DNA of 64,000 nt, taken from Streptomyces sp. YIM 121038 (GTDB lineage Bacteria > Actinomycetota > Actinomycetes > Streptomycetales > Streptomycetaceae). The notes beneath the pieces were generated by a model. It was not told the origin of the DNA. It saw only the letters and a program-made list of their open reading frames with translations, and made no database searches. A program made the position numbers and the translations under genes. Below are positions 4,583 to 22,913 of this stretch, piece by piece. Positions within the stretch are counted from its first letter, which is position 1. The number at the start of each line of letters is the position of its first letter. The DNA is taken from NCBI RefSeq assembly GCF_006088715.1, contig NZ_CP030771.1:5847501-5911500 (forward strand). Reading direction: 5' to 3'.

Positions 4583-5689
4583 TCACGCCACCCGTGTGGC
4601 CCCCGCGAACGGCATCTGGTCGATGGGGGCCAGCCGGACCGGAGCGCTGGGGTTGGGGGCGTGGATCATCTGGCCGTTGCCCACGTAGAGGCCGACGTGG
4701 CTGATGCCGGAGTAGAAGAACACCAGGTCGCCCGGCTGGAGTTCGGAGCGTCCGACGCGGCGGCCCGCGTCGATCTGGGCGTAGGTCGTGCGCGGCAGGG
4801 AGACGCCCGCCGCGCGGTAGGCGGCCTGGGTGAGGCCGGAGCAGTCGAAGGCGTTCGGGCCCGTGGCGCCCCAGACGTAGGGGCTGCCGAGCGCCTTGTA
4901 GGCGTACGAGACGGCCTTCGCGGCGCGGGAGTCGGGGGCCTTCACGGCGCCCGCCGGGGCCGCGCCACGTGCGTCGTCCCGGGAGGCCCGGCCGGAGCCG
5001 TCGGAGCCGTCCGAGCCGTCCGAGTCCGCTGTGCCGGGGCCGTCTTCGCCGCGCTCGGCGCGGGCGAGGCGCGCCCGTTCGTCGGCGGTCAGCCGGGCGA
5101 GCAGCCGCTTGGCCTCGCCGAGCTTGCCGGTCACGGTCTTCTTGTGCTTCCTCAGGTCCGCCTGGCGGGACTTGAGGTCCCCGAGAGTGTCGTCGGCCTC
5201 GGTGTGGAGCTGGTCGAGCTCCCTGACCTGGCGCCGTACGTCGGCGACCTCGGCGGCCTGGCGGCGGCCCGCGCGGTCGGCGCGGGTGGCCCGGTCGAGG
5301 AAGGCGTCCGGGTCGGCGGAGAGCGCGAGCTGGACGGACGGGTCGACGGCTCCGGCGCGGTACTGGGCGGTGGCCAGTGAGCCCAGCCCTTGGCGCGCCG
5401 AGTTGAGCCGCTCCGTCTTGCGGGCGGCCTCGTCGCGCAGGTCCCGCAGGGACTCCTCGGCCCGGTCGGCCTTCTCCTTGGCGCCGTTGTACTTCTCGGT
5501 GGCGACCTCGGCCTCGCGGTAGAGCCTGTCGACCTTGGCCTGCACCTCACCGGGGGTGAGCCGCGGTTCGGCGTGTCCGGTGCCCTCGAAGGCGGTCGCC
5601 GTGGCGGCCGACGCGAGGGCGAGGGTGGCGGCGGTACGGGCCGTATGGCCGCTGAGCGAGCGCTGCTTCGGCTTGCGGTGCTGTGCCAC
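4583..5689 (-). CDS. secreted NlpC/P60 (C40) peptidoglycan endopeptidase
   Basis: About 368 residues. A basic N-terminus and an Ala-rich hydrophobic stretch (about residues 12-32) act as signal peptide. A long coiled coil (about 40-200) follows, then an Asp/Ser/Gly linker and a C-terminal NlpC/P60 domain (last 115 residues). The catalytic Cys is in FDCSGLTQ, His in ISHVGLYVGN, and a second polar residue in MIHAPNP. Such enzymes cut peptide stems of peptidoglycan outside the cell. GTG at 5689 is preferred because GGAG lies 6-7 bases upstream; an ATG seven codons earlier lacks a site. Paralogue of the gene at 6498. Confidence 0.88.
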   Translation of the reverse strand: MAQHRKPKQRSLSGHTARTAATLALASAATATAFEGTGHAEPRLTPGEVQAKVDRLYREAEVATEKYNGAKEKADRAEESLRDLRDEAARKTERLNSARQGLGSLATAQYRAGAVDPSVQLALSADPDAFLDRATRADRAGRRQAAEVADVRRQVRELDQLHTEADDTLGDLKSRQADLRKHKKTVTGKLGEAKRLLARLTADERARLARAERGEDGPGTADSDGSDGSDGSGRASRDDARGAAPAGAVKAPDSRAAKAVSYAYKALGSPYVWGATGPNAFDCSGLTQAAYRAAGVSLPRTTYAQIDAGRRVGRSELQPGDLVFFYSGISHVGLYVGNGQMIHAPNPSAPVRLAPIDQMPFAGATRVA

Positions 5690-8197: not shown

Positions 8198-8220
8198 TTG
8201 TCAGTGGGGCCGCCTAGACT
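8198..8220 (+). promoter_or_regulatory. PafBC-type DNA-damage promoter of pcrA
   Basis: TTGTCAGTG (8198-8206), eight bases, then TAGACT (8215-8220) matches the actinobacterial RecA-NDp consensus TTGTCRGTG-N8-TAnnnT, recognised with the PafBC activator in the LexA-independent DNA-damage response. The pcrA ATG lies nine bases after the -10 hexamer. The rest of 7951-8197 shows no gene. Confidence 0.8.
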
Positions 8221-8229
8221 CGGGAGGCG

Positions 8230-10692
8230 ATGAGCAGCCTCTTTGACGACAGCTTCCTGGCGGACCTCAAGCCCTCGCAGGGCGCTGAGGAGGAGCCCCC
8301 GCCGCCGCCCGAGGACAGCGCTCCGGAGCCGATTCCGGACGACCTGTTCGACGGGAGGTTCGACGCGCCCGCACCCCGGGACGGGTACTACCGGGACGGC
8401 GCCCCCCGCCCGGCCCTCGACCCGGCGGCGCTCCTCGACGGGCTGAACGAGAACCAGCGCGCGGCCGTCGTGCACGCGGGCTCCCCCCTGCTCATCGTCG
8501 CGGGCGCGGGCTCCGGCAAGACCCGCGTACTGACCCACCGCATCGCGTACCTGCTCGCCGAGCGCGGGGTGCACCCCGGCCAGATCCTCGCGATCACGTT
8601 CACGAACAAGGCAGCGGGCGAGATGAAGGAGCGCGTCGAGCAGCTCGTCGGCCCGCGCGCGGGCGCGATGTGGGTGTCGACGTTCCACAGCGCGTGCGTG
8701 CGCATCCTGCGCCGCGAGTACAAGAAGCTGGGCTTCACGTCCTCGTTCTCGATCTACGACGCCGCGGACTCCAAGCGCCTGATGGCCCTGGTCTGCCGGG
8801 ACCTCGACCTGGACCCGAAGAAGTTCCCGCCGAAGTCCTTCAGCGCCAAGATCTCGAACCTGAAGAACGAGCTGATCGACGAGGAGGACTTCGCCGCCCA
8901 GGCCGCCGACGGCTTCGAGAAGACCCTCGCCCAGGCGTACGCGATGTACCAGTCGCGCCTCCGCGAGGCCAACGCCCTGGACTTCGACGACCTGATCATG
9001 ACGACGGTGCACCTCCTGCGCGCCTTCCCGGACGTCGCCGAGCACTACCGCCGCCGCTTCCGGCACGTCATGGTCGACGAGTACCAGGACACGAACCACG
9101 CGCAGTACGCGCTGGTGCGCGAGCTGGTCGGCCCCGCTCCGGCGGAGGGCGAGGAAGGCGAGGGGCCCGCCGAGCTGTGCGTGGTCGGTGACGCCGACCA
9201 GTCCATCTACGCCTTCCGCGGCGCCACGATCCGCAACATCCTCCAGTTCGAGGAGGACTACGCGGACGCCACCACGATCCTCCTGGAGCAGAACTACCGC
9301 TCCACGCAGACGATCCTCAGCGCCGCCAACGCGGTCATCGAGCGCAACGAGAGCCGCCGCCCCAAGAACCTGTGGACGAACGCGGGCGCGGGCGCCGGCA
9401 TCACCGGCTACGTCGCCGACACCGAGCACGACGAGGCGCAGTTCGTCGCCGACGAGATCGACCGCCTCACGGACGCGGGCGACGCGAAGGCCGGCGACGT
9501 GGCGATCTTCTACCGGACGAACGCGCAGTCGCGTGTCTTCGAAGAGATCTTCATCCGCGTCGGCCTGCCCTACAAGGTCGTCGGCGGCGTCCGCTTCTAC
9601 GAGCGCAAGGAAGTCCGCGACGTCCTGGCCTACCTGCGGGTTCTCGCCAACCCGGAGGACGGCGTACCGATGCGCCGCATTCTGAACGTGCCGAAGCGCG
9701 GCATCGGCGACCGCGCCGAAGCCATGATCGACGCGCTGGCGCAGCGCGAGAAGATCTCCTTCCCGCAGGCCCTGCGCCGCGTGGACGAGGCGTACGGCAT
9801 GGCGGCCCGCTCGGTGAACGCCGTCAAGCGGTTCAACACGCTCATGGAGGAGCTGCGCACCGTCGTGGAGTCGGGCGCGGGCCCGGCGGTCGTCCTGGAG
9901 GCCGTGCTCGAACGGACCGGGTACCTGGCCGAGTTGCAGTCCTCCACGGACCCGCAGGACGAGACGCGCATCGAGAACCTCCAGGAACTGGCCGCCGTGG
10001 CCCTGGAGTTCGAGCAGGAGCGCCAGGAGGGCGAGGCGGGGTCGCTGTCGGACTTCCTGGAGCGGGTGGCGCTCGTCGCCGACTCCGACCAGATCCCGGA
10101 CGAGGAGGACGACGGCTCGGGCGTCATCACGCTGATGACGCTGCACACCGCCAAGGGCCTCGAATTCCCCGTCGTGTTCCTGACGGGCATGGAGGACGGC
10201 GTGTTCCCGCACATGCGCGCCCTCGGCCAGACCAAGGAGCTGGAGGAGGAGCGCCGCCTCGCGTACGTCGGCATCACGCGCGCGCGGGAGCGGCTCTACC
10301 TCACGCGGTCCTCGATGCGCAGCGCCTGGGGCCAGCCGTCGTACAACCCGCCGTCGCGCTTCCTTGAGGAGATCCCGGCGACCCACCTGGAGTGGAAGCG
10401 GACGGGTTCCGTCGGCGCACCCGCCTCGTCGGGGCCCGCCGGGGGAGTGGCGTCCTCACTGTCGTCGTCGCGCTCGCGCGCGGGGGGCGCGCAGGGCTTT
10501 GCCACGCGCCGGGCAGCGGAGAAGCCGGTGGTCTCGCTCGCCGTGGGCGACCGCGTCACGCACGACCAGTTCGGCCTCGGCACGGTGGTCGGCGTGAAGG
10601 GCAGTGGGGCGAACGCCGAGGCGACGGTGGACTTCGGCGGGGAGAAGCCGAAGCGCCTGCTGCTGCGGTACGCGCCGGTCGAGAAGCTCTGA
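8230..10692 (+). CDS. pcrA: ATP-dependent DNA helicase PcrA/UvrD (superfamily 1A)
   Basis: An 820-residue SF1 3'-5' helicase. Motifs include Walker A AGAGSGKT (about residues 91-98), motif Ia ITFTNKAAGEMKERV, motif II VDEYQDTN, motif III GDADQSIYAFRGA, motif IV LEQNYRSTQTIL, motif V TLHTAKGLEFPVVFLTGMEDG and motif VI EEERRLAYVGITRAR. A C-terminal Tudor-like segment (about 775-820, VGDRVTHDQFGLGTVVGV) is typical of PcrA and contacts RNA polymerase. It unwinds DNA in repair and rolling-circle replication and removes stalled transcription complexes. GGGAGG sits four to five bases before the ATG. The upstream damage-type promoter fits a repair role. Confidence 0.97.
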   Translation: MSSLFDDSFLADLKPSQGAEEEPPPPPEDSAPEPIPDDLFDGRFDAPAPRDGYYRDGAPRPALDPAALLDGLNENQRAAVVHAGSPLLIVAGAGSGKTRVLTHRIAYLLAERGVHPGQILAITFTNKAAGEMKERVEQLVGPRAGAMWVSTFHSACVRILRREYKKLGFTSSFSIYDAADSKRLMALVCRDLDLDPKKFPPKSFSAKISNLKNELIDEEDFAAQAADGFEKTLAQAYAMYQSRLREANALDFDDLIMTTVHLLRAFPDVAEHYRRRFRHVMVDEYQDTNHAQYALVRELVGPAPAEGEEGEGPAELCVVGDADQSIYAFRGATIRNILQFEEDYADATTILLEQNYRSTQTILSAANAVIERNESRRPKNLWTNAGAGAGITGYVADTEHDEAQFVADEIDRLTDAGDAKAGDVAIFYRTNAQSRVFEEIFIRVGLPYKVVGGVRFYERKEVRDVLAYLRVLANPEDGVPMRRILNVPKRGIGDRAEAMIDALAQREKISFPQALRRVDEAYGMAARSVNAVKRFNTLMEELRTVVESGAGPAVVLEAVLERTGYLAELQSSTDPQDETRIENLQELAAVALEFEQERQEGEAGSLSDFLERVALVADSDQIPDEEDDGSGVITLMTLHTAKGLEFPVVFLTGMEDGVFPHMRALGQTKELEEERRLAYVGITRARERLYLTRSSMRSAWGQPSYNPPSRFLEEIPATHLEWKRTGSVGAPASSGPAGGVASSLSSSRSRAGGAQGFATRRAAEKPVVSLAVGDRVTHDQFGLGTVVGVKGSGANAEATVDFGGEKPKRLLLRYAPVEKL

Positions 10693-14281: not shown

Positions 14282-16018
14282 TCAAGGGGTGAGCTCCTCC
14301 CGCATCTCCGCGCGCAGGCGCAGGGTGGTGACCAGGCGCTGGAAGGCCTCCGACCAGTAGCCTCCGGCGCCGGGCGCGGCGTCCTCGCGCTCGTCCGGCA
14401 CGGCGGTGAGGGCGTCGAGCCGCACGGCCTCGGCCGGGTCGAGGCAGCGCTCCGCCAGGCCCATGACGCCGCTGAAGCTCCAGGGGTAACTGCCCGCGTC
14501 GCGCGCGATGTTCAGCGCGTCCACCACCGCGCGGCCGAGGTCGGGTGCCCAGGGCACGGCGCACCCGCCGAGCAGCTGGAAGGCCTCGGACAGGCCGTGC
14601 GCGTCGATGAAGCCCGCCACCCACGCGGCCCGCTCGGGCGCGGGCAGGGCGGCCAGGAGCTTGGCGCGCTCCGCCAGGGACACCGCGCCCGGGCCCGCCG
14701 CGTCGGGCGCCGACGGGGCGCCGAGCAGCGCCCGTGACCAGGTCGCGTCGTGCTGGCGGACGGCGGCGCGGCACCACGCGGCGTGCAGCTCGCCGCGCCA
14801 GTCGTCCGCGACGGGGAGCGCCACGATGTCGGCCGGGGCGCGGCCGCCGAGTCTGTGCCGCCAGGTCGCGAGGGGTGCGGCCTCCACCAGCTGGCCGAGC
14901 CACCAGGAGCGCTCGCCCCGGCCCGCGGGCGGCTTGGGGGCGACGCCGTCGCGCTCCATGCCCGCGTCGCACTCGTGCGGGGCCTCCACGGTGAGCGTCG
15001 GGGTGCTCGCGGTGCGGTCGAGCGCCACGCAGGAGGAGGCGCGGTCGGCCATGCGGGCGGCGAGCGCCGAGGCCGGCAGGGCGGACAGGAGCTCGGCGGC
15101 CGTGGCGCGGACGTTGCGGCTGCGGTCGCCGAGGGCCTGCTCCAGGAACGGCTCGTCGGCCGGGCCCAGGCCCGTGCGCAGCGAGTCGAGGAACATCAGC
15201 CGGTCCTCGGCCCGCTCCGTCGCCCAGGTGTCGGCCAGGAGCTCGCGCGCGGCGGCGGGGTCGTGGTCCCGGAGGGCGGTGAGGAGCGCGACGCGCTCCG
15301 CGAACAGGCCCTCCTGCCAGCGGCGTTCGACCTCTGCCCGGCCTTGTGCGCCGGTGGCCGCGGCGCGGTGCGGGGCGGCGCGCAGCGCGAACTTCCAGTC
15401 CGGGTTGAGCCCCGCGAGCCACCGGGCGCGCGGGCCCGCGAAGGCCAGGGCCTGGGGGCGCAGGTCGGTGCGGCCGCGGGCCGCGGTCAACAGGGCGGGC
15501 AGCAGCTCCGAAGGGGCCGCGAAGCCCCGGTCGATGGCCAGGGCCAGCCACTGGGGCAGCAGTTCCATCAGGTCGGGCGCGGTGCCCCGGCGGCCGCCGC
15601 CCGCCGTCGGATGGTCGGCGAGCAGGCTCGCGAGGCGGCGCCGGGCCGCGGGCGGCACGACGGGCCGGGGGTCCTCGGGAGCGGGCTCGGGGCGCGCGGC
15701 GGCGGGCGCGGGGCGCAGGCCCGCTCTGCGGTGCACCGTCTGGACGGCCGCCGCGTCCAGGAGGGCGATGGGGGCCTCCTTGCCGGGCGCGTCCAGGGGC
15801 GGTGTGCGCCGGTCCGTGCCCAGGAGCGCCGTCGTGACGAGCTCCTCCCAAGGGGTGCGGGTGAAGGCCGCCGCGCGGGCGGGGAGCGGGTCGGCCGGTG
15901 TCTGCGGGCGAGAGCCGGGCCGGGCCTCCGCCGCGGGGGCGGGGGCGGGGGGCCGCGGGGCGGTCGGCTCCGTGCGGGGCGTACGCGTCGTCCGCGCGCG
16001 CGTGGCGGGTGTCGTCAT
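14282..16018 (-). CDS. DUF5691 family protein of the MoxR/VWA system
   Basis: A 578-residue soluble protein. The first 55 residues are Pro/Ala/Thr-rich; the rest is mainly helical with HEAT-like segments (about residues 260-330: ALLTALRDHDPAAARELLAD and EQALGDRSRNVRATAAELLS). Near the N-terminus is the conserved WEELVTTALLGTDRR. It matches DUF5691, a family of unknown function found with SWIM proteins and MoxR/VWA pairs. The start at 16018 follows GGAGAGGGAG. The gene lies 38 bases after the SWIM gene on the same strand and is probably co-transcribed. The helical repeats suggest a scaffold or substrate adaptor (inference). Confidence 0.75.
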   Translation of the reverse strand: MTTPATRARTTRTPRTEPTAPRPPAPAPAAEARPGSRPQTPADPLPARAAAFTRTPWEELVTTALLGTDRRTPPLDAPGKEAPIALLDAAAVQTVHRRAGLRPAPAAARPEPAPEDPRPVVPPAARRRLASLLADHPTAGGGRRGTAPDLMELLPQWLALAIDRGFAAPSELLPALLTAARGRTDLRPQALAFAGPRARWLAGLNPDWKFALRAAPHRAAATGAQGRAEVERRWQEGLFAERVALLTALRDHDPAAARELLADTWATERAEDRLMFLDSLRTGLGPADEPFLEQALGDRSRNVRATAAELLSALPASALAARMADRASSCVALDRTASTPTLTVEAPHECDAGMERDGVAPKPPAGRGERSWWLGQLVEAAPLATWRHRLGGRAPADIVALPVADDWRGELHAAWCRAAVRQHDATWSRALLGAPSAPDAAGPGAVSLAERAKLLAALPAPERAAWVAGFIDAHGLSEAFQLLGGCAVPWAPDLGRAVVDALNIARDAGSYPWSFSGVMGLAERCLDPAEAVRLDALTAVPDEREDAAPGAGGYWSEAFQRLVTTLRLRAEMREELTP

Positions 16019-16035: not shown

Positions 16036-16077
16036 TCACAGCCGTACGGTCTCCGTTCACAGCCGTACGGTCTCCGT
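16036..16077. repeat. 21-bp tandem duplication at the SWIM gene 3' end
   Basis: Bases 16036-16056 and 16057-16077 are identical and contain CACAGCCGTACGGTCTCC. On the minus strand the SWIM gene's last codons and stop (16057-16059) lie in one copy and the second copy follows directly. This is the same kind of event as at 6364-6406. Confidence 0.85.
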
Positions 16078-17484
16078 CGTGCCGTCCGCCCAGGCCGCCA
16101 GCGGGGTGAAGCCCTGGTGGCCGCACTCGCCGAAGACGGTCAGCGGGGCGCCTCCGGAGAGGGCGACCAGGCGCCAGAGGCCGGAGCGGGACGCGGCGGA
16201 CGGGGAGATGGGCAGGGCCGAGTCGCCGTCCGCGTCCGCCAGTTGCCATCCAGCTCCGGAGCCGGAGCCGGAGCCTGGGCTGGAGGTGGAGGCGCGGGCC
16301 GGAACCGGTATCACCCGGGCCAGGGTCGTCGGCCACGCGTCCACCCACGGGTCGTCGCGCAGCGCCTCGCCGTAGCGGGCCGTCGCCGCCGCCGGGGGCA
16401 GGCCCGGCGGGCGGCCCGCGGCGGGGGCCGGGGCGGTGAACTGCTCGCCCAGGTCGGCGCGGAGCCCGGGTGCCGCCGGATCGGCGGCGTACGGAACCAG
16501 CTCGGCGTCCAGGGCCAGGCCGACCGGCAGGCTGAGGGCGGGGGCGCGGCCCGCCGCCCCGTACGACAGGAGCAGGGCCGTGCGCCCGGACCGCTCGCCG
16601 TACACCCACACGCGGCGCGTGGTGAGCTTGCTGTCCGCTGTGTCGTACTGCGCGAGGACCTGCCACACGTCCCGGACCGGCGCGCCCCGGGCCGGTGCGG
16701 GCAGGCCGACGCGGGAGCGGACCGTGGCCGCCAGCGGGGCGGACAGCCGGTCGCGGTGCAGCCAGCCCGAGGCGAGCAGGTGCAGCAGGGCGCACTCCTC
16801 CAGGAGCCGGGCGGGCCAGCCGGACCCGGAGGAGGGTATGGCGCCCAACTCCCGCACCCGCGCGGCCAGTCCCGGGGCCTGGGCGTCGACCATGCGGGCG
16901 GCCGTCTCCTCCCACAGGCCGTACCCCGCCCGCTCGGCCGTGGCCAGGCCGCCGCGCAGCAGGTCGGCCAGACGGCGCTCCAGCTCCGTCGCGCCCGCCG
17001 TGACGCGCTCGGCCCGGCGCTCCGCCCGCTTGCGCGCCGCCTCCGGGTCGGCGGCCGTCCGCTCCTGCGCCGCGCCCGGACTCCGCCTCGTCTCCGCTCT
17101 CGCGCGCCGCGAGTCCAGCCACTCCCGCGCCCAGTCCGGCGGAGGGGCGCCCTCCGGCACCGCGTCCGCCGGGCTTTCAGGGCCCGCCGCGCCGCCCGGT
17201 CCCGCCCAGAGCAGCAGCAGGCCGAGCGCGTGCTTGCAGGGGAACTTGCGGCTCGGGCAGCTGCACTTGTACGCGGGGCCCGCCGCGTCCGCCACGTCGA
17301 TCACCGTCTGGTACGGCTTGCTGCCGCTGCCCTTGCACAGTCCCCACACCGCCCCCTCGCCCGAACTGCCCGTCTGCGACCACGGCCCGGCGCCGCCGAG
17401 CCTGCTTCCCGCCTTGCGTGACGATGCGTCAGGTGCCAGTGCCAGCACCTGGTCCGCCGTCCAGCGCACCCCCTGCTGAGTCAT
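16057..17484 (-). CDS. SWIM zinc-finger protein of the MoxR/VWA system
   Basis: A 475-residue protein with an N-terminal SWIM zinc finger at about residues 55-80: CSCPSRKFPCKH, i.e. CxCx6CxH, followed by a hydrophobic ALGLLLL helix. SWIM domains bind DNA or protein. The remainder is Ala/Arg-rich and largely helical with no enzyme motif. The ATG at 17484 lies only seven bases from a perfect TACCGT -10 of a damage-type promoter, so the message is probably leaderless. It heads the minus-strand arm of the divergent cluster (SWIM then DUF5691), opposite MoxR-DUF5682-VWA. Confidence 0.82.
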   Translation of the reverse strand: MTQQGVRWTADQVLALAPDASSRKAGSRLGGAGPWSQTGSSGEGAVWGLCKGSGSKPYQTVIDVADAAGPAYKCSCPSRKFPCKHALGLLLLWAGPGGAAGPESPADAVPEGAPPPDWAREWLDSRRARAETRRSPGAAQERTAADPEAARKRAERRAERVTAGATELERRLADLLRGGLATAERAGYGLWEETAARMVDAQAPGLAARVRELGAIPSSGSGWPARLLEECALLHLLASGWLHRDRLSAPLAATVRSRVGLPAPARGAPVRDVWQVLAQYDTADSKLTTRRVWVYGERSGRTALLLSYGAAGRAPALSLPVGLALDAELVPYAADPAAPGLRADLGEQFTAPAPAAGRPPGLPPAAATARYGEALRDDPWVDAWPTTLARVIPVPARASTSSPGSGSGSGAGWQLADADGDSALPISPSAASRSGLWRLVALSGGAPLTVFGECGHQGFTPLAAWADGTTETVRL

Positions 17485-17491
17485 GTCGTCG

Positions 17492-17514
17492 ACGGTAGGT
17501 CCCGCCACTGACAA
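17492..17514 (-). promoter_or_regulatory. PafBC-type damage promoter of the SWIM gene
   Basis: On the minus strand TTGTCAGTG (17506-17514), N8, TACCGT (17492-17497) is an exact match to TTGTCRGTG-N8-TAnnnT. The start codon follows after seven bases. It forms the left arm of a 14-bp perfect inverted repeat (17503-17516 with 17562-17575). Confidence 0.75.
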
Positions 17515-17563
17515 TCAGCCGCTATGGCTGCGTCCGAGCAGGTCAGAGGCGTGCAGGGGCCGA

Positions 17564-17586
17564 TTGTCAGTGGCGTGGTGCACCGT
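17564..17586 (+). promoter_or_regulatory. PafBC-type promoter element of the MoxR operon
   Basis: TTGTCAGTG (17564-17572), N8, CACCGT (17581-17586). The -10 has C for T at its first base, so it is weaker than the divergent copy. The MoxR start is 100 bases further on, leaving a leader with no other recognised feature. Confidence 0.6.
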
Positions 17587-17686
17587 GGAACCACATCGCG
17601 GCCGAGCCGTCGGCGAGGCCGCGTCGTTGCCGACGCATGCGCGCTTCGGGTGGCTCGCGCATGCCCGAGCTCGAGGGGGGACCACC

Positions 17687-18841
17687 ATGACCGTTTCCGT
17701 GGAACCGACCGGCGGACGCGCCGCGTCCGCGAGGCCCGCGGAAGGCGGCGGAGAGCGCGCGACGCAGGAGCTGCGGCCGCACGCCGAGGACGCCTTCGCC
17801 GCCGAACTCGCCGCGCTCGCCGCACAGGACGACCGGCCGCGCCCGGCCCGCTGGCGGCTCTCGCCCTGGGCCGTGGCCACGTATCTGCAGGGCGGCACAC
17901 TGCCGGACGGAACCGTGATCACGCCCAAGTACGTGGGCCCGCGCCGCATCGTCGAGGTCGCCGTCACCACGCTCGCCACCGACCGCGCCCTGCTGCTGCT
18001 CGGCGTGCCCGGCACCGCGAAGACCTGGGTGTCCGAGCACCTCGCCGCGGCGGTCAGCGGCGACTCGACGCTCCTGGTGCAGGGCACGGCGGGCACGCCC
18101 GAGGAAGCCATTCGCTACGGGTGGAACTACGCGCGGCTGCTCGCCCACGGCCCCAGCCGCGACGCGCTCGTGCCCAGCCCCGTGATGCGCGCCATGGCCG
18201 AGGGCATGACGGCCCGGGTCGAGGAGCTGACCCGCATCCCCGCGGACGTCCAGGACACGCTGATCACGATCCTGTCGGAGAAGACCCTGCCCATACCGGA
18301 GTTGGGCCAGGAGGTGCAGGCCGTCCGCGGCTTCAACCTGATCGCCACGGCGAACGACCGCGACCGCGGGGTCAACGACCTGTCCAGCGCGCTGCGCCGC
18401 CGCTTCAACACGGTGGTGCTTCCGCTGCCGGAGAGCGCCGACGCCGAGGTCGACATCGTCGCGCGCCGCGTCGACCAGATCGGGCGCTCCCTCGACCTGC
18501 CCGCCGCGCCCGACGGCATCGACGAGATCCGCCGCGTCGTCACCGTCTTCCGCGAGCTGCGCGACGGCGTCACGGCGGACGGCCGTACGAAGGTGAAGTC
18601 GCCGAGCGGCACGCTCTCGACGGCCGAGGCGATCTCCGTGGTCACCAACGGCCTCGCGCTCGCCGCGCACTTCGGGGACGGCGTGCTGCGCCCCGGTGAC
18701 GTCGCCGCGGGCATCCTCGGCGCGGTCGTACGGGACCCGGCGGCGGACGCGGTGGTCTGGCAGGAGTACCTGGAAGCGGTCGTGCGCGAGCGCGACGGGT
18801 GGAAGGACTTCTACCGCGCGTGCCGCGAGGTGAGCGCGTGA
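17687..18841 (+). CDS. MoxR-type AAA+ ATPase
   Basis: A 384-residue AAA+ protein of the MoxR clade. Walker A is GVPGTAKT (residues 106-113). The Walker B position reads ARVEELTRIP, with Glu-Glu instead of the usual Asp-Glu. Sensor 1 is in FNLIATAND (216-224), followed by the arginine-finger region SSALRRRFNTV. MoxR ATPases work with VWA-domain partners as chaperones that remodel or activate targets (RavA-ViaA, CbbQ-CbbO, NorQ-NorD). ATG at 17687 is behind GAGGGGGG. Its stop overlaps the next start (GTGA), so MoxR, DUF5682 and VWA are co-translated. The altered Walker B is worth checking. Confidence 0.9.
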   Translation: MTVSVEPTGGRAASARPAEGGGERATQELRPHAEDAFAAELAALAAQDDRPRPARWRLSPWAVATYLQGGTLPDGTVITPKYVGPRRIVEVAVTTLATDRALLLLGVPGTAKTWVSEHLAAAVSGDSTLLVQGTAGTPEEAIRYGWNYARLLAHGPSRDALVPSPVMRAMAEGMTARVEELTRIPADVQDTLITILSEKTLPIPELGQEVQAVRGFNLIATANDRDRGVNDLSSALRRRFNTVVLPLPESADAEVDIVARRVDQIGRSLDLPAAPDGIDEIRRVVTVFRELRDGVTADGRTKVKSPSGTLSTAEAISVVTNGLALAAHFGDGVLRPGDVAAGILGAVVRDPAADAVVWQEYLEAVVRERDGWKDFYRACREVSA

Positions 18842-21348
18842 GCACCGCTGCGGGGCGGGGCGGCGGGCCGCTGCTGCTCGGGGTGCGGCACCACGGCCCC
18901 GGCTCCGCGCGCGCGGTGGGGGCCGCGCTCGACGCGGCGGCGCCGGGCGTGGTCCTGATCGAGGGCCCGCCGGAGGCCGACGACCTCGTACGGCTCGCCG
19001 CGGACGAGGACATGCGGCCGCCGGTGGCCCTGCTCGCGCACGTGGTGGACGAGCCGGGCCGGTCGGCGTTCTGGCCGCTCGCGGAGTTCTCGCCGGAGTG
19101 GGTGGCGATCCAGTGGGCCGTGCGGCGGGGAGTGCCGGTGCGGTTCATGGACCTCCCGGCCGCCCACACCCTCGCGCACCGGGAGGAGGAGCCCGGCGGG
19201 CCGGGCCCCGGCAGGGGGGACCCCATCGGCACGCTCGCCGACGCCGCGGGGTACGACGACCCGGAGCGCTGGTGGGAGGACGTCGTCGAGCACCGCGGGG
19301 CGGGTGCCGACCCGTTCGCTCCGTTCGAGGCGCTCGGCGAGGCCATGGGGGCGCTGCGCGAGACACCGGGCAGCGGCGGCGAGCACCGGGACCTGCTGCG
19401 CGAGGCGTACATGCGGCTGCAAGTACGGGCGGCGCAAAGGGAGTTCGGGGCCGAGCGCGTCGCCGTGGTCTGCGGGGCATGGCACGTGCCCGCCCTGCGG
19501 CACCGGACGACGGTGGCCGCGGACCGGGCGCTGCTCAAGGGCCTGCCGAAGGTCAAGGTCGACATGACGTGGGTGCCCTGGACGCACCGCCGCCTGGCCC
19601 GCAGGAGCGGGTACGGCGCGGGCGTCGACTCGCCCGGCTGGTACGGCCATCTGTTCGGCGCGCCCGACCGGCCCGTCGAGCGCTGGCTGACCAGGGTCGC
19701 GGGACTGCTCAGGGAGGAGGGCAGGATCGTGTCGTCCGCGCACGTCATCGAGGCGGTGCGGCTCGCCGGCACGCTCGCCGCGATGCGCGGGCGGCCGCTG
19801 GCCGGGCTCACCGAGACGACCGACGCGGTACGGGCCGTGATGTGCGACGGCTCGGACGTGCCGCTCGCCCTGGTGCACGACCGCCTCGTCGTCGGCGACG
19901 TGCTCGGCGAGGTGCCGGAGTCCGCCCCGGCCGTGCCCCTGCAGCGGGACCTCGGCCGCCTCCAGCGCAAGCTGCGGCTCAAGCCGGAGGCGCTGGAGCG
20001 GGAGGTGGAGCTCGACCTGCGCAAGGAGACGGACGCGGCGCGCGGCAGGCTGCTGCACCGGCTGCGGCTGCTCGGCGTCGGCTGGGGCGAGCCGGTGCGG
20101 TCGCGCGGCAGCACCGGGACGTTCCGGGAGACCTGGCGGCTGCGGTGGGAGCCGGAGCTGTCGGTGCGGGTCGCCGAGGCGGGGGTGTGGGGCACGACCG
20201 TGGCGGGCGCCGCGACCGCCAGGGCGGAGGCGGACGCGGTGGGCGCGGAGGCCCTCGCCGACGTCACGGCCCTGGCGGAGCGGTGCCTGCTGGCCGAGCT
20301 GCCGTCGGCCCTGCCGGTGGTGATGCGCGTGCTCGCCGACCGGGCGGCCCTGGACGCGGACGTGGGGCACTTGGCGGAGGCGCTGCCCGCGCTGGTGCGG
20401 TCGCTGCGGTACGGGGACGTGCGGGGCACGGACACCGGGGCGCTGGGGGAGGTGGCGCTCGGGCTCGTGGAGCGGGTGTGCGTGGGGTTGCCGTCGGCCT
20501 GCGTGGGGCTCGACCCGGAGGCGGCCGAGCGGATGCGGGGGCGCGTGGACGCGGTGCACGGGGCCGTGGGGCTGCTGGGGTCGCTGGGGTCGCTGGCGGC
20601 TTCGGCTGCGCCTGAGCCGGGGGCTGGTGACGCGGTGCCGGGCGGCGGGGGCCGTGCCCACCCCTCCGGCCCGGGGGCGGGTGTGCGTGCGCGTTGGCTC
20701 GGGGTGTTGCGGGGGCTCGCTGGTGGGGAGCGGGTGGTGGGGGTTGTCCGGGGGCGGTGCGCTCGGTTGTTGATGGATGACGGGGCGCTGCCGGAGGGGG
20801 AGGCCGCGCGGTTGATGGGACTCGCCCTGTCCCGGGGGAGCGAGCCCGGTGAGGCGGCCGCGTGGATCGAGGGCTTCGTCGGCGGGGGCGCGGGCGGCGG
20901 AATGCTGCTCGTGCACGACGAGCGGCTGCTCGGGCTCGTCGACCAGTGGCTCACGGGAGTCTCGGCCGAGGCGTTCGTCGACGTACTGCCGCTGCTGCGG
21001 CGGACCTTCTCCGCATACGAGGACGGGGTGCGACGCACGCTGGGCGAGCTGGTGCGGCGGGGGCCCGGCCGGGGCACGTCCGCGGCGGCCGCCGCCGGGG
21101 TGCCCGGGTTCGCCCAGGAGCTGGACCGGGAGCGGGCGGACGCGGTCCTGCCGGTGGTGGGGCTGTTGTTGGGGCTGGGCGGAGACGCGGACGATCGACT
21201 CAAGGGCGGTGGCGAGGTGTACGCGAGCGCGGACGACGGTGACGGTGACACGGGCTGGGGCGGCGGCCGCGGCGACGGCCGAGGCAGCGGTTCCGGCAGC
21301 AGCCGAGCCACGGCCCTGCGGGACAACGGCCTTGTGGGGGCGGCGTGA
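18838..21348 (+). CDS. DUF5682 family protein with TraB/Tiki-like GxxH motifs
   Basis: An 836-residue protein. The N-terminal domain has GVRHHGPGSA (G15-H18), IEGPPEAD (Glu42) and CGAWHVPAL (G213-H216). This spacing of two GxxH motifs with an intervening Glu resembles the TraB/GumN/Tiki and EreA-ChaN group of metal-dependent hydrolases. The remaining 600 residues are helical with Arg/Ala/Leu-rich stretches and a Gly/Asp/Ser-rich tail. The DUF5682 name is from memory; enzymatic activity is inferred from motifs only. GTG at 18838 overlaps the MoxR stop, and its own stop overlaps the VWA gene. Confidence 0.78.
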   Translation: MSTAAGRGGGPLLLGVRHHGPGSARAVGAALDAAAPGVVLIEGPPEADDLVRLAADEDMRPPVALLAHVVDEPGRSAFWPLAEFSPEWVAIQWAVRRGVPVRFMDLPAAHTLAHREEEPGGPGPGRGDPIGTLADAAGYDDPERWWEDVVEHRGAGADPFAPFEALGEAMGALRETPGSGGEHRDLLREAYMRLQVRAAQREFGAERVAVVCGAWHVPALRHRTTVAADRALLKGLPKVKVDMTWVPWTHRRLARRSGYGAGVDSPGWYGHLFGAPDRPVERWLTRVAGLLREEGRIVSSAHVIEAVRLAGTLAAMRGRPLAGLTETTDAVRAVMCDGSDVPLALVHDRLVVGDVLGEVPESAPAVPLQRDLGRLQRKLRLKPEALEREVELDLRKETDAARGRLLHRLRLLGVGWGEPVRSRGSTGTFRETWRLRWEPELSVRVAEAGVWGTTVAGAATARAEADAVGAEALADVTALAERCLLAELPSALPVVMRVLADRAALDADVGHLAEALPALVRSLRYGDVRGTDTGALGEVALGLVERVCVGLPSACVGLDPEAAERMRGRVDAVHGAVGLLGSLGSLAASAAPEPGAGDAVPGGGGRAHPSGPGAGVRARWLGVLRGLAGGERVVGVVRGRCARLLMDDGALPEGEAARLMGLALSRGSEPGEAAAWIEGFVGGGAGGGMLLVHDERLLGLVDQWLTGVSAEAFVDVLPLLRRTFSAYEDGVRRTLGELVRRGPGRGTSAAAAAGVPGFAQELDRERADAVLPVVGLLLGLGGDADDRLKGGGEVYASADDGDGDTGWGGGRGDGRGSGSGSSRATALRDNGLVGAA

Positions 21349-22913
21349 TGACACCTACGGAGGCCACGCGTGGCGCGGGGGCCGCGGGGGCCGCGGGCGG
21401 CACGGGGGCTGTAGAAGTCACGAGTGGCGCGGCGGCCGCGGAGGCCACGGAGCACGTGGACGGCGTGAAGGGCACGGAGGTCGTGGAGGCCACGGAGCGC
21501 GCAGATGGCGTGAAGGGCGCGGACGTCATGGAGGCCACGGAGAGCGTGGACGGTGTTGAGGTCGTGAACAGCGGTCAGGGCACGGGCGGCGGTAGCGGGG
21601 GTGAGGTCGCAGATGACGCTGCTGTCGCGGACGGCGGTGACGGCGGTGACGGCGGTGACAGCGGTGACAGCGGTGACAGCGGTGACGGCGGTGACAGCGG
21701 TGAGGGCGGTGACGGCGTGGGCGTAGTGGAGGCCGCTGAGGGCGTGGACGGTGGCGTGGGGGGCGAGCGGGTGCGGCGGTGGCGGCTTGTGCTGGGTGGG
21801 GGCGGGGCGGACGGGACGGGGTGCGCGCTGGCGGGGCGGGACGTCGCGATGGACGGGGCGCTGTCCTCGTTGTACGGGGGCGGGGGGCGGAAGACGGACC
21901 GGGGGCAGGGGCGGTCGGCGGGGCTCGGGGCGTCGGCGCCCGCGGTGGCGCGCTGGCTCGGTGACATCCGGACGTACTTCCCGTCGTCCGTCGTGCAGGT
22001 CATGCAGCGCGACGCGATCGACCGCCTCGGCCTGTCCGCGCTGCTCCTGGAGCCGGAGATGCTGGAGGCGGTGGACGCGGACGTCCATCTGGTCGGCACG
22101 CTGCTCTCGCTGAACCAGGCGATGCCGGAGGAGACGAAGGCCACCGCGCGAGCGGTCGTGCGGAAGGTCGTCGAGGACCTGGAGAAGAGGCTGGCCACCC
22201 GCGCGCGGGCCACGCTCACCGGCGCGCTCGACCGCAGCGCGCGGGTGCGCAGGCCGCGCCATCACGACATCGACTGGAACCGCACCATCGCGGCCAACCT
22301 CAAGAACTACCTGCCCGAGTACAAGACCGTGGTCCCCGAGCGGCTCGTCGGGTACGGGCGGGCCTCGCAGGCGGTGAAGAAGGACGTCATCCTCTGCATC
22401 GACCAGTCGGGTTCGATGGCGGCGTCCGTCGTCTACGCCTCGGTGTTCGGCGCGGTCCTCGCGTCCATGCGGTCGATCAGCACGCGGCTCGTGGTGTTCG
22501 ACACCAGCGTGGTGGATCTGACGGACCAGCTCGACGACCCCGTCGAGGTGCTCTTCGGCACCCAGCTCGGCGGCGGCACCGACATCAACCGGGCGCTCGC
22601 GTACTGCCAGTCCCGGATCGCCCGCCCGGCCGACACGGTCGTGGTCCTGATCTCGGACCTGTACGAGGGCGGGATACGGAACGAGATGCTGAAGCGGGTC
22701 GCGGCCATGAAGGCCTCCGGCGTGCAGTTCGTGACGCTGCTCGCGCTGTCCGACGAGGGGGCGCCCGCGTACGACCACGACCACGCGGCCGCGCTCGCCG
22801 CCCTCGGGGCGCCGGCGTTCGCCTGCACCCCCGACCACTTCCCCGAAGTGATGGCCGCGGCGATCGAGCGCCGCCCGCTGCCCATACCGGACCGGAGCAG
22901 TACTCCTCGGTAA
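21348..22913 (+). CDS. VWA-domain protein, partner of the MoxR ATPase
   Basis: About 521 residues. The first 140 are low-complexity: three imperfect copies of an EATExxDGVKG unit (about residues 24-65), then GDG/GDS repeats. The middle is helical (about 195-300). The C-terminal von Willebrand A domain has a complete MIDAS: D352-Q-S354-G-S356, T411 in GGGTD, and D437 in ISDLYEGG. In MoxR systems the VWA protein binds the target through the MIDAS metal. The start is TGATG-coupled to DUF5682 (ATG 21348; a GTG one codon earlier is possible). The repeats look young and probably vary in length between strains. Confidence 0.88.
   Translation: MTPTEATRGAGAAGAAGGTGAVEVTSGAAAAEATEHVDGVKGTEVVEATERADGVKGADVMEATESVDGVEVVNSGQGTGGGSGGEVADDAAVADGGDGGDGGDSGDSGDSGDGGDSGEGGDGVGVVEAAEGVDGGVGGERVRRWRLVLGGGGADGTGCALAGRDVAMDGALSSLYGGGGRKTDRGQGRSAGLGASAPAVARWLGDIRTYFPSSVVQVMQRDAIDRLGLSALLLEPEMLEAVDADVHLVGTLLSLNQAMPEETKATARAVVRKVVEDLEKRLATRARATLTGALDRSARVRRPRHHDIDWNRTIAANLKNYLPEYKTVVPERLVGYGRASQAVKKDVILCIDQSGSMAASVVYASVFGAVLASMRSISTRLVVFDTSVVDLTDQLDDPVEVLFGTQLGGGTDINRALAYCQSRIARPADTVVVLISDLYEGGIRNEMLKRVAAMKASGVQFVTLLALSDEGAPAYDHDHAAALAALGAPAFACTPDHFPEVMAAAIERRPLPIPDRSSTPR
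21437..21562 (+). repeat. imperfect 42-bp tandem repeats in the VWA gene
   Basis: About three copies of a 42-base unit beginning GAGGCCACGGAG encode the acidic EATExxDGVKGxxV motif. Copies differ at several bases. Confidence 0.7.
21630..21717 (+). repeat. 9-bp tandem repeats (GGCGGTGAC/AGCGGTGAC) in the VWA gene
   Basis: About ten nonamer copies encode alternating Gly-Asp-Gly and Gly-Asp-Ser. A multiple-of-three unit keeps the frame when the copy number changes. Confidence 0.85.

Follow-up and report, generated by a model that had tools for sequence, protein, structure and literature searches.

A five-gene MoxR/VWA cluster of the source genome carries two back-to-back promoter elements of the RecA-NDp/PafBC class, which probably place both of its divergent arms in a LexA-independent, PafBC-controlled response to DNA damage. 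RecA-NDp promoters are the class that PafBC activates in mycobacteria. The basis of this reading is the sequence of the two elements, their geometry relative to the genes, their conservation, the occurrence of the same motif at repair genes, and the presence of pafB and pafC. The promoter class is already known in Streptomyces, and the new part is the target cluster.

The divergent arms and their promoter elements

The cluster lies in a window of 64 kb, the whole stretch of DNA that was analyzed, in which a 202-bp gap (17485-17686) forms the boundary between two divergent gene arms. On the reverse strand, the first gene (16057-17484) encodes a SWIM zinc-finger protein of 475 aa (Pfam PF04434, 25.9 bits against a cut-off of 19.6) and the arm's second gene (14282-16018) a DUF5691 protein of 578 aa (PF18944, E = 1.6e-177). 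The forward-strand arm encodes a MoxR-type AAA+ ATPase of 384 aa (17687-18841; PF07728 AAA_5, E = 4e-37), a DUF5682 protein of 849 aa counted from the first GTG (18799-21348; PF18934, E = 1.4e-294), and a VWA protein of the CoxE type with 522 aa (21345-22913; PF05762, E = 1.1e-61), in which the DxSxS motif reads DQSGS. The solved relatives of the MoxR protein, by sequence, are Midasin and NorQ. The N-terminus of the DUF5682 protein (18859-20058, forward strand) carries the conserved motifs RHHGPGS, EGPPE, and GAWH, and its domain model, in which the resemblance was seen by VIA-align only, may have an EreA/ChaN-like fold (moderate confidence). Among the matches listed, an additional relative of MoxR, about 45% identical, is encoded elsewhere in some other Streptomyces genomes. 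A search of the open-access literature for DUF5682 or DUF5691 found no paper, so we met no published function for either family.

Both arms had been proposed in the initial annotation to start from the same kind of element within a perfect 14-bp inverted repeat, and this description held in every detail. The left arm of the repeat, CGCCACTGACAATC (17503-17516), is the exact reverse complement of the right arm, GATTGTCAGTGGCG (17562-17575), and the promoter cores face apart. On the side of the SWIM-DUF5691 arm, TTGTCAGTGGCGGGACCTACCGT (17514-17492, reverse strand) reads TTGTCAGTG-N8-TACCGT and matches the consensus TTGTCRGTG-N8-TANNNT with 0 mismatches; its −10 region ends at 17492, and the ATG start codon at 17484 follows after a gap of 7 nt, which means that the SWIM mRNA is probably leaderless. 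On the side of the MoxR-DUF5682-VWA arm, TTGTCAGTGGCGTGGTGCACCGT (17564-17586, forward strand) reads TTGTCAGTG-N8-CACCGT and is located 100 nt 5′ of the MoxR ATG. It departs from the strict consensus by a single base, a C for T at −12. This one-base difference in the −10 region, also recorded earlier, turned out to be fixed: the −12 base was C in all 80 loci of a Streptomyces set described below, though the scan fixed no more than the A at −11 and the T at −7. The C is thus not a stray base, and the MoxR-side element may be a conserved variant that functions like the consensus promoter.

The core TTGTCAGTG occurs in three copies in the window, and three sites with at most one mismatch to the element were found there, against 0.05 expected from 100 shuffles. 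None of 200,000 Markov-1 sequences modeled on the 202-bp gap had the core on both strands. The third element of the window, which the initial annotation had missed, is an exact match at 8198-8220 (forward strand) and belongs to a separate unit, lying 9 nt 5′ of the ATG at 8230 of pcrA/uvrD (8230-10692, forward strand).

Conservation within and beyond the Streptomycetaceae

The initial annotation had staked its reading on the element being conserved ahead of orthologous clusters, and such conservation was found. Both elements were present in 58/58 Streptomyces loci (30/30 in a group that includes the source genome and 28/28 in another) and, with at most one core mismatch, in 80/80 loci of a second Streptomyces set. 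The first core base was left free in the 58-locus count, as it was in a count of 11 loci from other genera of the Streptomycetaceae, nine of which carried both elements while two were without the strict SWIM-side element. The 80-locus set comprises the best 80 of 573 relatives, may overlap in species with the 58 loci, and contains neither S. venezuelae nor S. coelicolor, either of which could be represented among the 58. Across these 80 loci, the SWIM start codon followed the −10 region by 7 nt in 72 cases and by 6 nt in 8. Core information amounted to 1.95 bits per position on the SWIM side and 1.98 on the MoxR side, with corresponding values of 0.58 and 0.78 for the 25 positions upstream and 1.28 and 1.67 for the spacers; downstream, the values were 1.27 on the SWIM side, mostly SWIM coding sequence, and 0.89 on the MoxR side.

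Among 20 further loci from other Streptomycetaceae genera, all 11 in which the SWIM start was located had the SWIM element, and a relaxed form of the MoxR-side element lay within 350 bp in 17/20, where the overall rate predicts 0.1 per locus. The three remaining loci had an exact MoxR-side core, one of them (L187) with GA in place of CA. The elements of two genera, g106 and g109, were among the most changed, and these genomes have 2 to 6 exact sites each.

Across the class, 296 genomes yielded 70 MoxR matches at E = 1e-90, and the cluster is thus not universal. Forty of the 70 relatives lie outside Streptomyces, all of them in other families, with Nocardiopsis, Planomonospora, Planobispora, and Halostreptopolyspora among the genera represented. 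In these 40 loci, DUF5691 is encoded upstream of MoxR on the same strand in 39 and SWIM likewise in 34 (within the retrieved stretch), and DUF5682 and VWA genes follow MoxR in 6/6 loci examined, which indicates a colinear operon. Paired elements were searched for within 900 bp of MoxR in all 40 loci and none was found, with two chance-like matches. Since the cluster is colinear in these families, the promoter must be sought before SWIM. A loss of the promoter link outside the Streptomycetaceae was considered and rejected, because the cluster is colinear there and the element stands before the SWIM gene.

The region before SWIM was taken for 35 of the 40 loci, the other five being left out for their short contigs. 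The SWIM start was located in 26 loci, and in 18 of them TGTC-N12-TANNNT with a start codon 5 to 8 nt later was found at that start; only 25 strings of this form with a start codon behind them occurred in 245,070 strand-bases. When either C or T was allowed at −12, 24/26 loci matched at the SWIM start and there were 42 such strings overall. The SWIM N-terminus was divergent in nine loci, and in eight of these the element stands ahead of a frame of the same family. In total, the relaxed element, TGTC-N12-[TC]ANNNT with a start codon 6 to 8 nt behind, precedes the first (SWIM-family) gene in 32/35 loci; it was absent before SWIM in three (L139 and L140 of family f4, and L156 of f22). The relaxed form was derived partly from the loci that it describes, a weakness of the 32/35 count that is countered by the rarity of the string elsewhere in the loci and by its presence at recA. 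There it was found in 26/26 genomes examined, against 0.08 expected per locus at the rate elsewhere (26 of 30 recA loci were scanned, and four that were second halves or a second copy were left out), including two of the three genomes whose SWIM gene lacks it.

The strict core TTGTCAGTG, with at most one mismatch, was found at the SWIM start in only 3/35 loci, all in Nocardiopsis, and exact sites outside the Streptomycetaceae are few (0 to 14 per genome). The Nocardiopsis recA element was without the GTG part in 6/6 cases scanned, and the SWIM element keeps this part in 3/7. A parallel variation of the relaxed forms at SWIM and recA was also considered and was dropped after a recount gave no gene-by-gene match.

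Two further features were observed. In six of the colinear operons (L128, L129, L131, L132, L134, and L136), the frame behind the element has no SWIM zinc finger near its N-terminus, although the protein is otherwise retained, as is the promoter. In four recA loci, from three genomes, the recA match was divided into two segments spaced about 1 kb, both in a single frame of 810 to 1207 aa, a putatively intein-like pattern.

The ancestral cluster was probably one colinear operon with a single promoter of this class. In the Streptomycetaceae, the operon would have been split into two divergent arms, the second having a separate promoter of this kind, whereby joint control would be kept; the family thus apparently retained both halves in the regulon.

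The genome-wide set of sites and the PafB and PafC genes

The source genome contains 26 exact TTGTCRGTG-N8-TANNNT sites, against 1 for the reversed pattern, a control that ignores codon bias. Judged from the genes downstream of all 26 sites, 13 seem to be placed before genes for repair, replication, or helicases: pcrA, a UDG-family glycosylase, RarA/MgsA, a PD-(D/E)XK nuclease, a RecD2 HHH-domain protein, UvrA, an O6-methylguanine methyltransferase, UvrB, RecD2, DnaX, a RadA-like protein, RecA, and a DEAD-box helicase, for which a repair role is putative. Core repair genes, among them recA, uvrA, uvrB, and pcrA, are therefore included in the set. The SWIM gene is the 14th. The other 12 sites precede rpsF, an MFS transporter, an amine oxidase, a peptidase-like hydrolase, an ABC permease, an ECF sigma factor, one position with two competing frames, and five genes without a Pfam family; rpsF is part of the ssb operon in many bacteria. 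At 15/26 sites, the predicted start codon of the downstream frame follows the −10 region by 6 to 9 nt (the site with competing frames excluded). Exact sites were likewise numerous in 17/17 further Streptomyces genomes, with 11 to 35 per genome against 0 to 1 for the reversed pattern.

In the source genome, adjacent WYL genes (G000:C1:2149408-2150585) with the HTH_PafC family encode PafB and PafC, whose best sequence matches in the PDB are the PafBC structures 7p5x, 9fnd, and 6sj9. Together with the conservation of the elements and the occurrence of the same element at recA, uvrA, uvrB, and pcrA, the encoded PafB and PafC support the PafBC-type reading put forward in the initial annotation and suggest that the cluster is part of the DNA-damage response.

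Cores followed by CANNNT, as on the MoxR side, numbered 9 to 35 per genome in 20 Streptomycetaceae genomes and those followed by RANNNT 6 to 27, against 0 to 3 for the reversed control; because cores with A or G at −12 are enriched as well, sites with C at −12 are not proven to be a distinct functional class. The source genome has 18 such C-class sites. Four terminal-repeat copies and the MoxR site were left out, 13 were retrieved, and the genes behind eight were put to Pfam. Three of the eight encode a dinB-type polymerase, a topoisomerase IV/gyrase A protein, and a DEAD helicase, and the remaining five a DUF2797 protein, an FAD oxidoreductase, a DtxR-like repressor, a HEPN protein, and one protein without a family. 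Four identical C-class elements are located about 5.4 kb from contig ends, at 5423 and 10125110 of C1 and at 5423 and 962446 of C2, and terminal inverted repeats are apparently common to both linear replicons.

Alternative readings, related systems, and a possible role

In S. coelicolor, we take SCO4797 to be pcrA and SCO4808 to be sucC, with the locus between them. From its order between these two genes and a protein of 815 aa, the published topA-regulator locus sco4803-sco4806 is probably the MoxR-DUF5682-VWA arm described here. Gaps of exactly 103 and 171 bp, used to test whether sco4804 is the DUF5682 gene, were not found together at any locus among 80 Streptomyces relatives, and this identity therefore rests on gene order and protein length.

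This locus gives its main backing to the view that the arms are controlled by DNA supercoiling itself and that the cluster contributes to the balance of topoisomerase levels, damage not being directly involved. In the sections of PMC8120823 cited here, sco4804 and adjacent genes rise about eightfold upon TopA depletion, and a transposon in sco4804 (polar on sco4805) lowers topA promoter activity, whereas overexpression raises it; the identity of sco4804 with the DUF5682 gene, judged from gene order and size, is only probable. The sections of PMC6637917 on TopA-depleted S. coelicolor also report induction of recA, recX, lexA, and uvrA, a response that its authors read as LexA-driven, and because these genes are induced, TopA depletion is a damage signal too. 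The element is, moreover, common to recA, uvrA, uvrB, and pcrA, and we consider control by supercoiling itself unlikely. If sco4804 is the DUF5682 gene, the induction of sco4803-sco4806 by TopA depletion fits the damage reading.

That TTGTCAGTG is instead a housekeeping element or one read by another activator such as ClgR, ahead of genes that are not damage-inducible, appears distinctly unlikely. ClgR is cited in part of PMC5656591 as recognizing the mycobacterial recA P1 region, and cores with other bases at −12 are enriched, yet the full element stands ahead of a coherent set of repair genes. This promoter type is also found at UV-inducible Streptomyces genes, in excerpts from two papers: PMC2375139 cites the recA promoter of S. 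rimosus, which is UV-inducible, and counts 67 genes of S. coelicolor that have related motifs, among which the genes of this cluster may already be, and PMC5087735 places the motif ahead of SCO6735, a gene described in the section heading as UV-inducible.

Control by LexA through an SOS box, alone or in addition, is very unlikely. In its favor, lexA rises with recA upon TopA depletion (in the cited part of PMC6637917), and two weak SOS-like 14-mers occur at 17361 and 17489, each with 3 mismatches in 10, which compares with 3 to 5 mismatches in the published weak SOS boxes of S. venezuelae. However, 446 of 127,974 window positions have at most 3 mismatches to the 14-mer, so that about 3 are expected in 17300-17750, and this region holds no strong SOS box, the best candidate departing from the 16-mer at 5 of its 12 fixed bases. 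The sequence is thus consistent with LexA independence of the cluster.

A single palindromic operator for a dimeric repressor, as the perfect 14-bp inverted repeat might suggest, is hardly credible and was rejected, because the distance between the two cores is not conserved (27 to 764 bp in 80 Streptomyces loci), which indicates two promoters rather than one operator and makes the repeat look incidental, and because unpaired copies precede other genes and the colinear operons.

Control by PafBC, the preferred reading, would make the cluster a new target within a known regulon. It shares with the RecA-NDp/PafBC regulon (mycobacteria, S. rimosus recA, and SCO6735) the same TTGTCRGTG-N8-TANNNT element, the recA, uvrA, uvrB, and uvrD companions, and PafB with PafC, and differs from it in that the target is a MoxR/VWA/SWIM cluster, the promoters form a divergent pair, and one of them has C at −12; action of PafBC is putative. 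As the initial annotation had surmised of the link between this family and a damage promoter, no paper connecting this cluster with PafBC was found in the open-access literature. Part of PMC5656591 lists MoxR1 and MoxR2 as lower in a pafBC mutant of M. smegmatis; these too are MoxR proteins whose level falls without PafBC, and their kinship to the present MoxR type is putative. In sco4803-sco4806, probably the same arm, the published reading is supercoiling control, and the cited sections of PMC8120823 do not name the promoter class.

In gene content, the cluster resembles other MoxR systems. YehL-type MoxR clusters, such as yehLMPQ of Escherichia coli, comprise MoxR AAA+, DUF5682, VWA, and SWIM proteins. 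The same content is present here as MoxR AAA+, VWA_CoxE, DUF5682, and SWIM, and DUF5682 was found in 2 of 14 control genomes, one of them E. coli. Compared with the E. coli cluster, the present one has DUF5691 in addition, two divergent arms, and damage-type promoters. RavA-ViaA, NorQ-NorD, and Midasin likewise combine a MoxR-kind AAA+ protein with a VWA partner, and the sequence matches are to NorQ and Midasin; the VWA protein reached 20.8 bits against ViaA, whose cut-off is 500, and the DUF5682, DUF5691, and SWIM parts are additional here. A MoxR and VWA pair is also shared with the MoxR-vWA-beta-propeller ternary conflict systems, but the bpMoxR score of 23.3 bits is below the cut-off of 27, and no PADLOC model matched any of the five cluster frames at E = 0.001.

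In the mechanism that we propose, DNA damage or a build-up of single-stranded DNA would lead PafBC to bind single-stranded DNA and to redirect the housekeeping RNA polymerase to these nonstandard promoters. SWIM-DUF5691 and MoxR-DUF5682-VWA would then be made alongside RecA, UvrA, UvrB, and PcrA, with LexA not needed. The five products most likely form one remodeling machine, in which the MoxR ATPase would act on a client through the MIDAS face of the VWA protein and DUF5682, DUF5691, and SWIM would serve as adaptors, perhaps at DNA. Binding by PafBC, induction by damage, leaderless transcription, the direction of the operon split, and the machine with its client are what we infer from the genomic evidence. 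A broader picture, which we offer tentatively and hold at somewhat below even, is that of an old LexA-independent damage machine of Streptomyces and its relatives, switched on along with recA when PafBC senses single-stranded DNA; it would act on stalled protein-DNA complexes by remodeling them and would feed back on the expression of topoisomerase. On this view, what was published as "supercoiling-dependent" induction of sco4803-sco4806 would reflect PafBC responding to single-stranded DNA that arises when TopA is depleted, and a working PafBC regulon would exist in Streptomyces, the S. venezuelae report of 2022 notwithstanding.

A deeply conserved promoter of the damage type provides this poorly understood five-gene machine with a role that can be tested and with a condition for its study, and it offers an alternative reading of the published TopA-depletion data. 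It also bears on a question that is open in print, namely whether Streptomyces has a PafBC-type response: in the relevant part of PMC9380542 (Stratton et al. 2022), an initial search is described in which the mycobacterial PafBC motif seemed not to be conserved in S. venezuelae. For the family, joint regulation apparently outlives the splitting of an operon into divergent halves.
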